A stretch of 17,006 nucleotides of DNA. It comes from Burkholderiales bacterium (lineage in GTDB: Bacteria > Pseudomonadota > Gammaproteobacteria > Burkholderiales > Usitatibacteraceae). The position numbers and the translations under genes were made by a program. This document shows positions 1 through 11,450 of the stretch, in pieces. The first letter of the stretch is position 1; each line of letters opens with the position of its first letter. The notes under the pieces are model-generated. The model ran no database searches. It saw only the letters and a list, made by a program, of their open reading frames with translations, and had not been told where the DNA came from. The stretch lies in the NCBI GenBank assembly GCA_014378085.1, contig JACMOJ010000339.1:1-17006 (forward strand), in the 5' to 3' direction.

Positions 1-707
1 AAAAACAGCGTGCCCCCCTCCGCCTGCTCAAATCTACCGCGTCTTGTTGTTGCCGCGCCGGTAAAGGCACCGCGCTCGTGCCCAAACAGCTCGCTCTCTA
101 AGAGATCCTTTGGAATCGCCGCAGTATTGATGGCGATGAACGGCTTTGTCGCACGCTGGCTGTGGCGGTGTAGAGCATGCGCAACGAGCTCTTTTCCGCT
201 GCCCGACTCACCGGTGATGAGCACCGTCGCGTGTGACTGCGAAAGCCGCCCTACTGCGCGAAACACCTCTTGCATCGACGGTGCCGAACCAAGTATTTCC
301 GGCGTAGCCTCCACCTTGTCAGAATCCGTTTGCTGGGCAATATGACGAGACTCGTCCATCGCACGGCGAATTAACTCGACCGCATGGTCGATATCGAACG
401 GCTTCGGCAGGTATTCGAAGGCACCCCCCTGAAATGCGGCAACGGCACTTTCTAAATCAGAATAAGCCGTCATGATGATGACCGGCGTCGTTGGCAGCTT
501 CAATTTCAGCTTTTGCATGAAATCTAACCCTGATATGCCGGGCATTCTGATGTCACTAATTACGACTTGCGGCGGATCGTCCTCAAGCGCGTCTAACCCT
601 TCATGGGCTGCGGCAAAAGACTTGTATTCGATCCCTTCACGCGTAAGCGCCTTTTCGATGACCCATCGAATCGATTTGTCGTCGTCAATAATCCAAACCG
701 GTTTCAT
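1..707 (-). CDS. ntrC: NtrC (NR-I) nitrogen response regulator, partial (C-terminus beyond left edge)
   Basis: NtrC is the response regulator of the nitrogen two-component pair. When phosphorylated by NtrB it oligomerises and drives sigma-54 RNA polymerase by ATP hydrolysis. The visible 235 residues contain a receiver domain (acidic pocket D8-D10, phospho-acceptor D52 in SDIRMPG, T80 and K102) and the start of the AAA+ domain, with Walker A GESGSGKE at 166-173 and the sigma-54-contacting loop GAFTGA at 213-218. The rest of the AAA+ domain and the Fis-type DNA-binding domain lie past the left edge. The start is the ATG at 705-707, preceded by AAAGGA with suitable spacing. It lies 60 bases downstream of the ntrB stop, in the same orientation, so the two are probably co-transcribed. 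The GAFTGA loop rules out a sigma-54-independent regulator. Confidence 0.96.
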   Translation of the reverse strand, partial: MKPVWIIDDDKSIRWVIEKALTREGIEYKSFAAAHEGLDALEDDPPQVVISDIRMPGISGLDFMQKLKLKLPTTPVIIMTAYSDLESAVAAFQGGAFEYLPKPFDIDHAVELIRRAMDESRHIAQQTDSDKVEATPEILGSAPSMQEVFRAVGRLSQSHATVLITGESGSGKELVAHALHRHSQRATKPFIAINTAAIPKDLLESELFGHERGAFTGAATTRRGRFEQAEGGTLF

Positions 708-767: not shown

Positions 768-1874
768 CTAGGGTCGTGCAGCCTGCAATTGTTGTTTGCT
801 TCTAACGGGGATAGTCACGATGAACTGGGTATCGCCAGAAGTGCTTTCGAATTCGATGACGCCACCATGCTGGTTTACAAAGTTTTGCGCGAGCGATAAC
901 CCAACGCCAGTGCCGCCTTCTCGTCCGGTTACGAGCGGATAAAAAATCGTGTCTTTAAGGTGTTCAGGCACGCCGGGCCCTGCGTCACAAATGCGAATTT
1001 CAAGTGCCAAGCGGAACCGTTCGCGTACGATAGTGACCTGTCTCGCGATGCGGGTCTGAAACCGTATTGTTCCAGCACCTGCCGTTGCCTGCGCCGCATT
1101 GCGTGCAATGTTGAGCATCGCTTGAATCAACTGTTCGCGGTCGGCAAGCAGCTCGGGCAGGCTGGTATCGTAGTCTCGGTTGATCGAAAGCGTTTCGGGG
1201 AACTCCGCAAGGACAAGTGAGCGCACATATTCTAGGACTTCGTGCATGTTCACCGGCTCAATTTTTGGCAGGCGGTGCGGCGTCAACAGCCGGTCCATTA
1301 GCGACTGTAAGCGATCCGCTTCCTTGACGATGACTTGTGTGTATTCCACAAAGGTGTCGTCCGGTAGTTCACGCTCTAGTAGCTGCGCTGCTCCGCGAAT
1401 ACCTCCCAGCGGATTCTTAATTTCGTGGGCAAGATTTCGTATCAATTCGCGATTGAGCTTTTGCTGTTCCAGCAATTTTTCTTCGCGCGCGATCTTTAGG
1501 TGTTGGTCAAGGGGTTGGAATTCCACAACCACCCGGTCCGCATCCACCGGCGTCGCAACACACGAACAGTGAAGCGTCTGCCCGACGGCTGTCACGATGG
1601 TAAGGCTGGACTCGTTAAAGCCGGACTCCGACGTCAGCACCTGCGCTAACATCGCAAACACGCCTGGGTCCTGCTCGTTGTCGTGGACTATCCTTGCCAG
1701 CGGCAAACCAACAGCGTTCTTGCGGCTGAATGCGAACAAATTTTCGGCTGCAGCGTTCGCATGCATGAGTTGGAGCTTCCTGTTCACCACCATTACGGCG
1801 GTAGCAATGAGATCGAGGCCTTGATATTGATTCAAAGCCGAAGCATCACGAAATTGTTGAGGTTGTTGTTTCAT
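768..1874 (-). CDS. ntrB: NtrB (NR-II) nitrogen sensor histidine kinase
   Basis: NtrB is the cytoplasmic kinase/phosphatase that sets NtrC phosphorylation in response to PII. The 368-residue protein has an N-terminal PAS domain (about 15-125), a dimerisation/phospho-acceptor helix with H150 in NLAHEIKNPLGG, and a GHKL ATPase domain with an N box around NIARNAAQA (255-263), a G1 box DAGPGVP (297-303) and a G2 box GGTGVGLSLA (320-329). There is no membrane segment, as expected for the family, and the length is typical. The start is the ATG at 1872-1874; no strong Shine-Dalgarno precedes it. The sigma-54-type promoter at 1905-1921 predicts a leader of only about 20 bases. An intrinsic terminator upstream (2011-2046) separates it from the DUF4124 gene, so the glnA transcript is not expected to reach ntrBC efficiently. 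Confidence 0.96.
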   Translation of the reverse strand: MKQQPQQFRDASALNQYQGLDLIATAVMVVNRKLQLMHANAAAENLFAFSRKNAVGLPLARIVHDNEQDPGVFAMLAQVLTSESGFNESSLTIVTAVGQTLHCSCVATPVDADRVVVEFQPLDQHLKIAREEKLLEQQKLNRELIRNLAHEIKNPLGGIRGAAQLLERELPDDTFVEYTQVIVKEADRLQSLMDRLLTPHRLPKIEPVNMHEVLEYVRSLVLAEFPETLSINRDYDTSLPELLADREQLIQAMLNIARNAAQATAGAGTIRFQTRIARQVTIVRERFRLALEIRICDAGPGVPEHLKDTIFYPLVTGREGGTGVGLSLAQNFVNQHGGVIEFESTSGDTQFIVTIPVRSKQQLQAARP

Positions 1875-1904
1875 GTTGTTTCAAGTTGCACCGTTTGTAA
1901 TCTT

Positions 1905-1921
1905 AGCAAGTTCCTTGCCAG
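1905..1921 (-). promoter_or_regulatory. Sigma-54 (-24/-12) promoter for ntrBC
   Basis: The minus strand reads TGGCAAGGAACTTGCT. This matches the sigma-54 consensus TGGCACG-N4-TTGCW with one mismatch (A for C at the sixth base). The invariant GG (1919-1918) and GC (1907-1906) are separated by exactly 10 bases, the required spacing. The predicted start of transcription is near 1894, about 20 bases before the ntrB ATG. The -24 half is the last unit of the 10-bp tandem array that extends upstream to 1980. A promoter is expected here because an intrinsic terminator closes the preceding gene. The match is seen directly; its function is inferred. Confidence 0.7.
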
Positions 1922-1980
1922 CACTTGCCAACACTTGCCAACACTTGCCAACACTTGCCAGCACTCGCCAGCACTCGCCA
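1911..1980 (-). repeat. Tandem array of seven 10-bp units, each carrying a TGGC(A/G)AG -24-like core
   Basis: Reading the minus strand from 1980 down to 1911, the units are TGGCGAGTGC twice, TGGCAAGTGT three times, TGGCAAGTGC once and TGGCAAGGAA once, with no spacer. The period is 10 bases, about one helical turn, so all copies face nearly the same side of the DNA. Each unit holds the GG of a sigma-54 -24 element. Between neighbouring full units the next GC falls 9 bases away instead of 10, so only the last unit, with the following TTGCT, forms a proper -24/-12 pair. The array lies between a terminator (2011-2046) and the ntrB start. Confidence 0.93.
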
Positions 1981-2010
1981 GCGAAGCCCCTGCAAACGAT
2001 ACCCCAATCG

Positions 2011-2046
2011 AAAAAAAACGCCGAAGACTTTTTGATCTTCGGCGTT
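2011..2046 (-). terminator. Intrinsic terminator after the DUF4124 gene
   Basis: A perfect 11-base stem, AACGCCGAAGA (2017-2027) with TCTTCGGCGTT (2036-2046), encloses an 8-base loop. On the minus strand it is followed by eight consecutive T (positions 2018 to 2011), some of which pair with the A tract of the stem base. It lies 42 bases past the stop of the DUF4124 gene, which is transcribed in this direction, so it should end that transcript before the ntrBC promoter. Confidence 0.92.
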
Positions 2047-2088
2047 CAACTTCGATCGGACAACCCAATCGAAAGGAGTCAAAACAAA

Positions 2089-2967
2089 CTAATGGCTTCG
2101 TGCAGTCCCGAGCTGGGCGGTCGTCACGCTAGCGTTTGACTGTATGGCGCCCGCTGTTTTGAGAGCGGCGCGTTGTGGAGGGACGCGCATCTGGAGCCGA
2201 AGTTCGGCAAGGTTCTCCTCGTGACTTAGTACCCGATCCTGTAGTTCTCGGACCAGTTCGAAATGTCTTTCGACGACCATTTTCGTGGCGGCGATATCGT
2301 CATTTAAAGGTCGTTTACCCGCTGACGCTCGTTCGTCAACGACAATCGCTGCACGCAATATTCGCATTGCGACGCTCTTTGATTGCTCGCGCTGTAGATA
2401 GTCTTTGGCCTCTACTAGCGACTGCGCCTCTGCCCCAATTTCAGCTTGGATGATGCGACGGCGAACCTCTTCTCGTCGCTGCAGCGCGGTCAATCCAGTG
2501 CTCCCTGCGCTGGGGGAAATTGCCTCTCGCCGAGAGTCGCTCGCTGACGCCCTGCCCGCGCTGCCTAGATTAAGCGAACTCCTCGGCAGCGGGTTTAGCG
2601 TCGAATGTTGCTTGCCGATGACCACGGGTGGCGGTTCTACAGCCATCGTCATTGATTCAGGCGTTTGTGGCGCCGTCGCTTCGCTTAGTGAATTTATATT
2701 TGGCGCAGCGTCTGCTGGCCGTGTCTGCGGGATCGGTGGAGTGCTCTGTGGCAAGACGGGGGCGTTCGCTGCATGCGGCGTCTTCGGTAAAACAGTCAAC
2801 GGGCCGAGTTCCACCACCGCTCCACCCTTAATAGGCTGATTTGAGTAAGTGGTTTTGCCCGATGTGTCTACGTGCTTGTACACGACAAGCCCTTGTGCAA
2901 ACGCCATCGGCATGCCGACGATTCCGGGCATCAACAAGATCAACAAGAAAAAACGCAAATAATTCAT
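2089..2967 (-). CDS. Secreted DUF4124-domain protein of unknown function
   Basis: This is a 292-residue exported protein. From the ATG at 2965-2967 it begins with a clear signal peptide (MNYLRFF, a hydrophobic stretch, then AFA before QG at about residue 25). A short DUF4124 module follows: VVYKHVDTSGKTTYSNQPI, about residues 28-46. Next comes a proline/alanine/serine-rich low-complexity stretch and a charged, probably helical or coiled-coil C-terminal half (about 165-260). DUF4124 proteins are common periplasmic or envelope proteins in Proteobacteria without an assigned function. The open frame extends 26 codons further upstream to a TTG at 3045. I prefer 2967 because it places the signal peptide at the N-terminus, although neither start has a good Shine-Dalgarno. 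The gene between glnA and ntrB is bounded on both sides by intrinsic terminators and so is probably its own transcript. Confidence 0.85.
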   Translation of the reverse strand: MNYLRFFLLILLMPGIVGMPMAFAQGLVVYKHVDTSGKTTYSNQPIKGGAVVELGPLTVLPKTPHAANAPVLPQSTPPIPQTRPADAAPNINSLSEATAPQTPESMTMAVEPPPVVIGKQHSTLNPLPRSSLNLGSAGRASASDSRREAISPSAGSTGLTALQRREEVRRRIIQAEIGAEAQSLVEAKDYLQREQSKSVAMRILRAAIVVDERASAGKRPLNDDIAATKMVVERHFELVRELQDRVLSHEENLAELRLQMRVPPQRAALKTAGAIQSNASVTTAQLGTARSH

Positions 2968-4680: not shown

Positions 4681-4698
4681 AGCACAAAACATGCCACA
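4681..4698 (-). promoter_or_regulatory. Probable sigma-54 promoter for glnA
   Basis: The minus strand reads TGTGGCATGTTTTGTGCT. GG (4695-4694) and GC (4683-4682) are separated by exactly 10 bases, and the hexamer-like parts resemble TGGCACG-N4-TTGCW with two mismatches (T for C, and G for the first T of TTGC). The predicted start is near 4670, giving a leader of about 88 bases to the glnA ATG. The fit is weaker than the ntrB promoter, but position, orientation and upstream half-sites support it. Confidence 0.55.
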
Positions 4699-4764: not shown

Positions 4765-4816
4765 ATGGTGCATTGCAATAACCCACGCACCAATAGGTGG
4801 CGTCAACTTGGTGCGC
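4765..4816. promoter_or_regulatory. Cluster of NtrC-like half-sites (GGTGC/GCACC) upstream of glnA
   Basis: Half-sites resembling the NtrC dyad TGCACCA-N3-TGGTGCA occur at 4765-4773 (ATGGTGCAT), 4786-4793 (CGCACCAA) and 4808-4815 (TTGGTGCG). The last two form a perfect 8-base inverted repeat with a 14-base spacer, which is the standard 3-base spacing plus 11, about one extra helical turn. They lie about 95-145 bases upstream of the predicted glnA start, where NtrC enhancers are usually found. No complete consensus dyad is present, so NtrC binding is inference. They are also just upstream of aroE. Confidence 0.45.
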
Positions 4817-7056: not shown

Positions 7057-7416
7057 TTAACCCATCGGTTTGATGAGCGGCGTGATGACAGGTGTCACCA
7101 TTGGCGCGGGCTTTGCTGCGGGGGCGGCCTTTTTAGGGGCTGCTTTTTTCGCAGCTGGTTTCTTTACAGGCTTCTTAGCTACTTTTTTTTTTGCCGCTGG
7201 TTTCTTAGCGGCTTTCTTTGCAACAGGTTTTTTAGCCGCTTTTTTTGCAGCAGGCTTTTTCTTAGCCGCTGGCTTTTTTGCGACTTTCTTAGCAGCTGGC
7301 TTCTTTGCGACTTTTTTTGCTGCTGGCTTCTTTGCTACTTTTTTTGCTGCTGGCTTCTTTACTGCTGGTTTTTTAGCCGCTTTTTTTGCTGCCGGCTTTT
7401 TCTTGGCTGTTGCCAT
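7057..7416 (-). CDS. Histone H1-like lysine/alanine/proline-rich DNA-binding protein
   Basis: This 119-residue protein is almost entirely lysine, alanine, proline and a little valine, built from variants of a KKPAAKK(V/A)A repeat. It ends in a non-repetitive hydrophobic tail (about 100-119, PMVTPVITPLIKPMG). Such proteins resemble the C-terminal domain of eukaryotic histone H1 and occur in many betaproteobacteria, for example Bordetella BpH1. They bind DNA through charge and act as nucleoid proteins. The ATG at 7416 is preceded by AAAGGAG with a 7-base gap (7424-7430), which decides the start over an in-frame TTG six bases upstream. The gene is rich in A runs on its coding strand and internally repetitive, so length may vary between strains. 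The antisense frame of Phe/Ala repeats is a mirror artefact. Confidence 0.88.
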   Translation of the reverse strand: MATAKKKPAAKKAAKKPAVKKPAAKKVAKKPAAKKVAKKPAAKKVAKKPAAKKKPAAKKAAKKPVAKKAAKKPAAKKKVAKKPVKKPAAKKAAPKKAAPAAKPAPMVTPVITPLIKPMG

Positions 7417-7803
7417 GATCAAACTCCTTTCGATGGTTGGACCGAATTGCTTGTTTGGACTCGACTCTACTGAATCGAATCACCAAGACATCAGTTCAGA
7501 CGAACGATTGAGATTGGCAGTTGCCGAGAATGCTAGAGACGGCGAAACAACCTCACTCCACTCGCGGTTGCTTGCCTAAAGAATCCAAATGCGAGGAATT
7601 CAAAAAACATTCGCCGCGAGCACTTGGTGAACTGGATTCTATGTAAGAAATTTTTTGAACACCAGTTATTCGCGCCCTCAACACTGATTATTAGCAATCA
7701 AGTTTTCAATTACTGTATCGAATCGATACCATCGTAATTTACTCCGCTACGCCATCACTCAATTTTCTGTCCAAGCATTTTGTTTTCGTTGAAAGTTTGC
7801 GCA
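7417..7803. other. Non-coding region upstream of the histone-like gene and downstream of lysA
   Basis: These 387 bases are more A/T-rich than the surrounding genes and hold no credible coding frame. They should include the histone-like gene's promoter, but I see no clear -35/-10 pair. There is no evident intrinsic terminator for lysA. A perfect 15-base odd palindrome, GTATCGAATCGATAC, lies at 7715-7729 and is listed separately. Confidence 0.5.
7715..7729. promoter_or_regulatory. 15-base palindrome GTATCGA-A-TCGATAC
   Basis: Seven-base arms are exactly inverted around one central A. The ten bases GTATCGAATC (or GATTCGATAC on the other strand) also occur in the inverted repeat ahead of the MarR gene, in the arm at 9795-9812. 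A shared operator is possible; this is inference from sequence identity only. Confidence 0.35.
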
Positions 7804-9924: not shown

Positions 9925-10527
9925 ATGGATAAAAATCCGCTTGTGTTGCTTGAACTAGTTGAGCGACTAGGCAATTTAATGCGGGCGGAAGCTCGTCGGG
10001 CGGGCGCAGATGAACAGCTCGCACCCGTCCACGTTGAGGCGTTGGTCTATCTTGCAGGCGCGAACCGCTACTCGAATACGCCACAGGCGCTGAGTGAGTA
10101 CCTTGGCCTGACCAAGGGCACCGTGTCCCAAAGCCTGTTGCTACTTGATCGGCGAGGCTTGATCGAACGCTATCAAGATGACATTGATCGCCGAGTTGTC
10201 CGGCTTCGCCTATCCGCGACCGGAGAACAGTTTTTGTACGAAAATCAGCCACAGCTTGCGTGGATTCATGCGACGCGCGAGATCAGCCCGAACCGAGTAC
10301 GTAACGCCGTTTCTGCACTTCGCGAGACGCTCACCACGTTCCAATCTGATCGCGACGGCTCGCCATTTGGCAAATGTCCCGGTTGTAGACACTTCGAGCG
10401 CCTTTCCATCCGCGCATATAGATGCGGGCTCATGGGCGATCGATTGTCGGGTCCTGATACTCGGAAAATTTGTTGGCTGTATGCCGCAAAGGGCGGCGCC
10501 GCTGATGACGATGATGATGACCTGTAA
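9925..10527 (+). CDS. MarR-family regulator with a four-cysteine C-terminal extension
   Basis: The 200-residue protein has a MarR-type winged helix at about 52-100: TPQALSEYLGL, then TKGTVSQSLLLLDRRGLIER as recognition helix region, then the wing QDDIDRRVVRLRLSATG. Helices expected to form the dimer interface are at 5-25 and 105-142. Unlike classical MarR (about 145 residues) it continues with a tail whose only cysteines are C151, C154, C167 and C183 (spacing C-X2-C-X12-C-X15-C), and it ends in six aspartates. The cysteine set looks like a metal or iron-sulfur ligand group; this is inference. The start is the ATG at 9925; an ATG at 9914 is out of frame. The gene stands alone between cyaY and the PTS genes, with a large inverted repeat upstream that may be its operator. 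The ligand and targets are unknown. Confidence 0.88.
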   Translation: MDKNPLVLLELVERLGNLMRAEARRAGADEQLAPVHVEALVYLAGANRYSNTPQALSEYLGLTKGTVSQSLLLLDRRGLIERYQDDIDRRVVRLRLSATGEQFLYENQPQLAWIHATREISPNRVRNAVSALRETLTTFQSDRDGSPFGKCPGCRHFERLSIRAYRCGLMGDRLSGPDTRKICWLYAAKGGAADDDDDDL

Positions 10528-11410: not shown

Positions 11411-11450
11411 GATCGGCTTCGGTCGGCTTAGGTCGGCTTAGGTCGGTCCA
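11411..11450 (+). repeat. Period-10 direct repeat (GGTCGGCTTA) between ptsH and ptsI
   Basis: Four adjoining 10-base units, GATCGGCTTC, GGTCGGCTTA, GGTCGGCTTA and GGTCGGTCCA, occupy 11411-11450. The middle two are identical and the outer ones diverge. A small inverted repeat, AAATCCA (11388-11394) with TGGATTT (11404-11410), lies immediately before. The ptsI start is 45 bases downstream. This may be a regulatory array or a replication-slippage product. It shares the 10-base period, but not the sequence, with the array ahead of ntrB. Confidence 0.85.

Follow-up and report, generated by a model that had tools for sequence, protein, structure and literature searches.

A tandem array of -24-like cores adjoins a probable sigma-54 promoter of ntrBC in a Burkholderiales bacterium

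Introduction

Formation of the closed complex by sigma-54 holoenzyme needs the spacing GG-N10-GC across the -24 and -12 elements of the promoter. Bacterial promoters can also contain VNTRs that alter expression by their copy number, and the known examples alter either how far apart the promoter parts lie or how distant an activator site is.

Sigma-54 promoters have been predicted at ntrB in Beta- and Gammaproteobacteria in one survey (PMC12316311). In Paraburkholderia phymatum, nodules of an rpoN mutant show down-regulation of ntrB and ntrC, and the glnA-ntrBC unit is reported to have a putative RpoN box (PMC5979394). One passage of that report places the box at glnA, followed by ntrBC, and therefore the P. 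phymatum box may not be an ntrB-proximal promoter. Here, we describe the region upstream of ntrB in a 17,006-nucleotide stretch of DNA from a Burkholderiales bacterium (contig JACMOJ010000339.1), the whole of which is referred to as the window.

Results

The window contains ntrB and the start of ntrC, which carries the sigma-54 interaction domain, together with glnA, which is backed by family models and lies upstream of ntrB with a DUF4124 ORF in between (Table 1). The partial ntrC scores 367.4 bits, below the full-length NCBIfam cut-off of 558.6. Most of the window is collinear with a stretch of the UKL13-2 chromosome (L050) and a stretch of genome G003 (L051). The nearest named relatives are two MAGs labelled Rhodocyclaceae (L001 and L013) and Betaproteobacteria bacterium UKL13-2 (L002), with NtrB identities of 80-83%.

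Table 1. Coordinates of features in the window
Feature	Position	Strand	Details
ntrC, cut by window edge	3..707	-	TIGR01818 positions 1-233 of 463, 367.4 bits; Sigma54_activat domain
ntrB, nitrogen regulation sensor kinase NR(II)	768..1874	-	NCBIfam NF008293, 354.7 bits, cut-off 240
Second 10-bp repeat, over ntrB start	1864..1888	+	TGTTGTTTCA on plus strand, 2.5 copies
Predicted +1	1894	-	Inferred from -12 C at 1906; 20 nt before ATG at 1874
Complete sigma-54 -24/-12 promoter, predicted	1905..1920	-	TGGCAAGGAACTTGCT; seventh core plus TTGCT; sole GG-N10-GC register
Six extra 10-bp units	1921..1980	-	TGGCGAGTGC x2, TGGCAAGTGT x3, TGGCAAGTGC x1; -24-like, no correctly spaced -12
Terminator-like hairpin and T run	2016..2047	-	Between DUF4124 ORF and array; consensus scan and alignment
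glnA -24/-12 promoter-like site	4681..4696	-	TGGCATGTTTTGTGCT; same 16-mer in L050 and L051
Two NtrC-like sites upstream of glnA	4787..4814	-	Two mismatches each; overlap of 2 bases
10-bp tandem repeat, ptsH-ptsI gap	11413-11446		TCGGCTTAGG, 3.4 copies

On the minus strand upstream of ntrB, the core TGGC(A/G)AG occurs seven times, starting at 1980, 1970, 1960, 1950, 1940, 1930 and 1920, with exactly 10 bp between all successive starts and a span from 1980 to 1914. Tandem Repeats Finder (TRF) reports 1914-1982 as period 10, 6.9 copies and 94% matches, and the array consists of tandem, near-identical units, as a VNTR would. The pattern TGGCRAG-N3-TGGCRAG matches six times in the window, and not one such adjacent pair was seen in 200 dinucleotide shuffles. 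Seven tandem -24 cores with a 10-bp period had been noted in a first-pass annotation made from the letters of the window, and our pattern and shuffle checks bear out its coordinates, count and spacing. Our register check likewise agrees with its statement that only the last core is followed by TTGCT at GG-N10-GC, the others being off by one base: copy 7 alone has this arrangement, and copies 1-6 each form GG-N9-GC with the next unit, so that none of the six upstream units has the geometry expected of a further sigma-54 promoter.

Read along the minus strand from 2047, the order of elements is a terminator-like hairpin, a short spacer, the seven cores, TTGCT (1909-1905), the predicted +1 and the ATG. 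The consensus scan found one terminator-like hairpin against 0.6 expected in shuffles, and alignment shows the same hairpin in L001, L002 and L013. Folded as DNA, the array region has a z of -2.63, with 1 of 200 shuffles as stable, a result to which we give no weight. A coding origin of the array was considered and set aside, since its period of 10 bp is not divisible by three and it is located between annotated-type genes; short plus-strand ORFs do cross it.

The seventh core and TTGCT together have the sequence and spacing of a sigma-54 promoter (TGGC-N7-TTGC type, GG-N10-GC). In our self-made weighted consensus, with a maximum of 22 and a threshold of 19.5 for strong sites, the promoter scores 21. 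Transcription is predicted from the -12 element to start at 1894, the position given by the first-pass annotation. A search for a sigma-70 promoter in 1800-2150 found none. We compared the site with 43 related ntrB loci, 20 from one search and 23 from further searches with duplicates dropped. In 21 of the 43, a strong -24/-12 site (at least 19.5 of 22) lies on the ntrB strand no more than 250 nt upstream, compared with 0 of 43 on the opposite strand of the same DNA and 0 of 43 inside ntrB. The promoter is not universal, being absent within 250 nt at 22 of the 43 loci, and a family search that matched ntrB in 26 of 28 genomes found the site in 12 of those 26 loci. It is nevertheless present at the conserved upstream position in all three closest relatives (L001, L013 and L002), and RpoN is encoded in 3 of 3 close relatives (over the Pfam cut-off). 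L001, L013, L030 and L032 share the 16-mer TGGCAAGGAACTTGCT exactly; L002 and L033 differ from it by one base, in the N4 spacer. Judged by this conservation, the -24/-12 promoter that had been proposed for ntrBC is very probably real. The pattern TGGCRNGN4TTGCW occurs twice in the window against 0.09 expected, and 1 of 200 shuffles reaches two. The second occurrence, at 7102 on the plus strand, lies on the opposite strand of an ORF (7057-7422, minus) that encodes a lysine/alanine-rich, histone-H1-like repeat, named by eye.

The array is not conserved in the way the promoter is. Within 500 nt upstream of ntrB, successive TGGC copies at 10-bp steps number at most one in 39 of the 43 loci, zero in three and two in one (L008), and among the 21 related ntrB promoters TGGC lies 10 bp above the -24 core in none and 11 bp above it in two (L001 and L013). 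A strict pattern of three cores plus a -12 element had no match in 399 sampled Burkholderiales genomes or in 398 sampled Pseudomonadota genomes. With up to two mismatches, the array pattern matched one place in each of the three closest genomes, where the controls gave 0 to 5 matches apiece, and none of these places is at ntrB; two are real short 10-bp repeats (L021 and L022) and the third shows no clean repeat (L023). Neither the plasmid nor the E. coli collection matched the array, and the plasmid collection did not match the promoter region, in searches that filter simple repeats. Viral contigs L073 (the three-core pattern in an unclean repeat), L075 and L076 (two units each) were dismissed as chance-like by eye. 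Among the relatives examined, the array is thus lineage-specific. The first-pass annotation had named the joint absence of the -24/-12 pair and the array from close relatives as evidence against its reading; the result is mixed, as the pair is present and the array absent. The comparison of unit number across related genomes that it had suggested shows an array that is not conserved and a longest run of two.

From the first TGGC to that of the -24 core is 60 bp in the window versus 11 bp in L001 and L013, and L002 has a longer, unrelated spacer, which together suggest that the spacer upstream of -24 is tolerant of change. As a probe of protein databases we used the antisense ORF at 1873-2139 (plus), which spans the array. 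It had one match, P0001, a predicted protein of 111 residues whose reading frame crosses the equivalent spot in a relative. At the protein level, P0001 retains LASSLP, which overlies the promoter, and is missing the residues encoded by the repeat.

Two other 10-bp repeats are present in the window (Table 1). At the first, over the ntrB start, L001 and L013 have one repeat copy and a TTG start; in the window a second copy, beginning with ATG, follows the TTG-type copy, and the two copies are in different frames. The second, in the ptsH-ptsI gap, was not seen in L051 or L050, which have other sequence there; by eye, the L050 gap contains a 13-bp duplication. Counting TRF rows with a score of at least 40 and a period of at most 30, period 10 accounts for 3 of 11 rows in the window versus 1 of 95 in UKL13-2 (18 stretches, a 360-kb sample), 0 of 10 in 51 kb of G003 plus L001, and 0 of 57 in 164 kb of farther loci. 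The Fisher p value for the window against UKL13-2 is 0.003, or 0.028 if two of the 11 rows are counted, and this excess is weak because the comparison is post hoc, the array itself is counted and several window rows are one coding repeat. UKL13-2 also has at least one 10-bp repeat (L021) outside the sampled 360 kb.

Comparable repeats occur elsewhere, and of the 10-bp repeats other than the array, within and beyond the window, some contain TGGC. An unrelated contig from the viral collection (L074) carries at 9998-10047 five perfect copies of GAGTGCTGGC, the decamer of the first two units in the window, which are not followed by a -12 element; near them is an ORF that by eye resembles a tyrosine recombinase. 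L021 has an independent 10-bp repeat of TGGCAGGTGG at about 1500-1530, of approximately three copies, intergenic-looking and away from ntrB, and genome G001 (L022) has a shorter 10-bp repeat of TGGCGCGAAA/T. No strong -24/-12 site was found near either of these (best per strand 15.5 and 18.0 of 22 at L021, 14 and 14 at L022). Since the repeats of L074, L021 and L022 lack a -12 element or a strong -24/-12 site, a sigma-54 promoter is not needed for such repeats to arise. The additional TGGC of L001 and L013, placed 11 bp above the -24 core, has its GG at N10 from the GC of the next TGGC. An imperfect repeat of this kind could seed slippage, and a slippage origin of the array is plausible.

The product of ntrC is itself a candidate regulator of the promoter, and the first-pass annotation had suggested feedback by NtrC on ntrBC. 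A consensus search of the window over the 526 nt that precede ntrB, allowing up to three mismatches, found no NtrC-like site, and the same region of L001, L013 and L002 has only weak ones (two to three mismatches). The suggestion of feedback therefore finds no local support. The array was also considered as a set of NtrC sites and rejected: GTGC occurs in it as direct repeats only, with no GCAC on the same strand, and pattern searches were empty there. The best pair of NtrC-like sites lies about 90-120 bp before the glnA -24/-12-like site and ~2.9 kb from ntrB. Upstream of glnA, L051 has an NtrC-like site with one mismatch, and L050 has three-mismatch ones only. Over the whole window, eight NtrC-like matches compare with 10.3 expected, no more than chance. 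NtrC, if it drives ntrBC here, must do so either remotely or through a poor site; an activator other than NtrC is possible.

Discussion

Taken together, we consider it likely that ntrBC has a conserved sigma-54 promoter whose -24 side has been multiplied by slippage into an array that is close to neutral. In this account, ntrBC would be transcribed from its own promoter (1920-1905, minus), between the terminator-like hairpin and ntrB. A 10-bp segment containing the -24 core would have been multiplied in tandem in this lineage, probably by recent replication slippage that started from an imperfect neighbouring TGGC like that of L001 and L013. With a spacing one base below the usual sigma-54 geometry, the six extra cores would most likely have no effect or a slight effect on transcription, and such an origin predicts that unit number varies at the level of strains. 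Near-identity of the units favors slippage, as do the two further 10-bp repeats within these 17 kb and the repeats of L074, L021 and L022. Against slippage with neutrality, TGGC-AG is constant across the seven units and other positions differ, a pattern that selection on -24 cores would give as well, and the repeat is placed exactly on the promoter core.

An alternative is a functional array, in which weak binding of sigma-54 holoenzyme to the upstream cores, by way of the RpoN box, makes them local decoys or a loading strip, with unit number setting ntrBC output. The seven cores are in the same phase, at a perfect 10-bp step and adjoining a real promoter. The RpoN box contacts -24 and the HTH contacts -12 (PMC6028918), and weak one-sided binding is conceivable on that basis. 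Other evidence is less favorable to this alternative. Not one of the 21 related ntrB promoters has a core at step 10. A single polymerase footprint covers neighboring units at this distance, which cannot be filled simultaneously; upstream units with polymerase bound would thus compete with the real promoter instead of feeding it, and filled units close to the true promoter would block it. The spacing of the units falls one base below what is required; with a step of 11 bp, each TGGC would be both a -24 and the previous -12 element, and the array's 10-bp step avoids this, which disfavors selection for more promoters. In 150 genomes, with the reversed pattern as control, a doubled -24 core before a full site was matched in 92, more than the control, and among the matches listed, counted by eye, step 10 (8) is not commoner than step 9 (19) or step 11 (9). 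We therefore think a functional array unlikely. Increased polymerase occupancy, tuning by copy number and a slippage-prone volume control, the roles offered by the first-pass annotation, gain no support, since relatives keep the promoter without the array, doubling at step 10 is not commoner and the spacing is broken; a decoy or tuning role is possible and unsupported. A strip of -24 half-sites both made and tunable by slippage, whose unit number would set the amount of holoenzyme retained close to the complete promoter or kept away from it, we regard as rather improbable.

The array might instead be bound by another regulator that reads 10-bp direct repeats upstream of the promoter. Some OmpR/PhoB-type regulators do read such repeats, which suit dimers of this type generally, and the lack of an NtrC-like site near the ntrB promoter leaves its activator unexplained. 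However, because the array is absent from related loci, no regulator shared with them depends on it, and we hold this proposal to be quite improbable. That the array is an assembly artefact, with a wrong unit number or a chimeric join, is very improbable, given that it is ~70 bp, below common read lengths, has internal variants and is flanked by DNA syntenic with L050 and L051.

If the array is neutral, as we favor, a designed-looking regulatory array can arise next to a conserved promoter. If it is functional, it would offer a natural test of whether sigma-54 holoenzyme can be held, and output set, by -24 half-sites alone, and would bear on the way sigma-54 finds promoters. A literature search by title and abstract start, whose coverage is mostly of papers available without subscription and whose silence is accordingly weak, returned no description of tandem -24 arrays or of sigma-54 tuning by them. 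Compared with the sigma-54 promoters of ntrBC and glnA-ntrBC in Beta- and Gammaproteobacteria, the window has the same element at the same gene and on the same strand, and it adds six -24-like cores upstream at a 10-bp step. Like promoter VNTRs, it has tandem near-identical units in the promoter region that are slippage-prone in appearance, whereas its complete promoter keeps the -24 to -12 spacing untouched.
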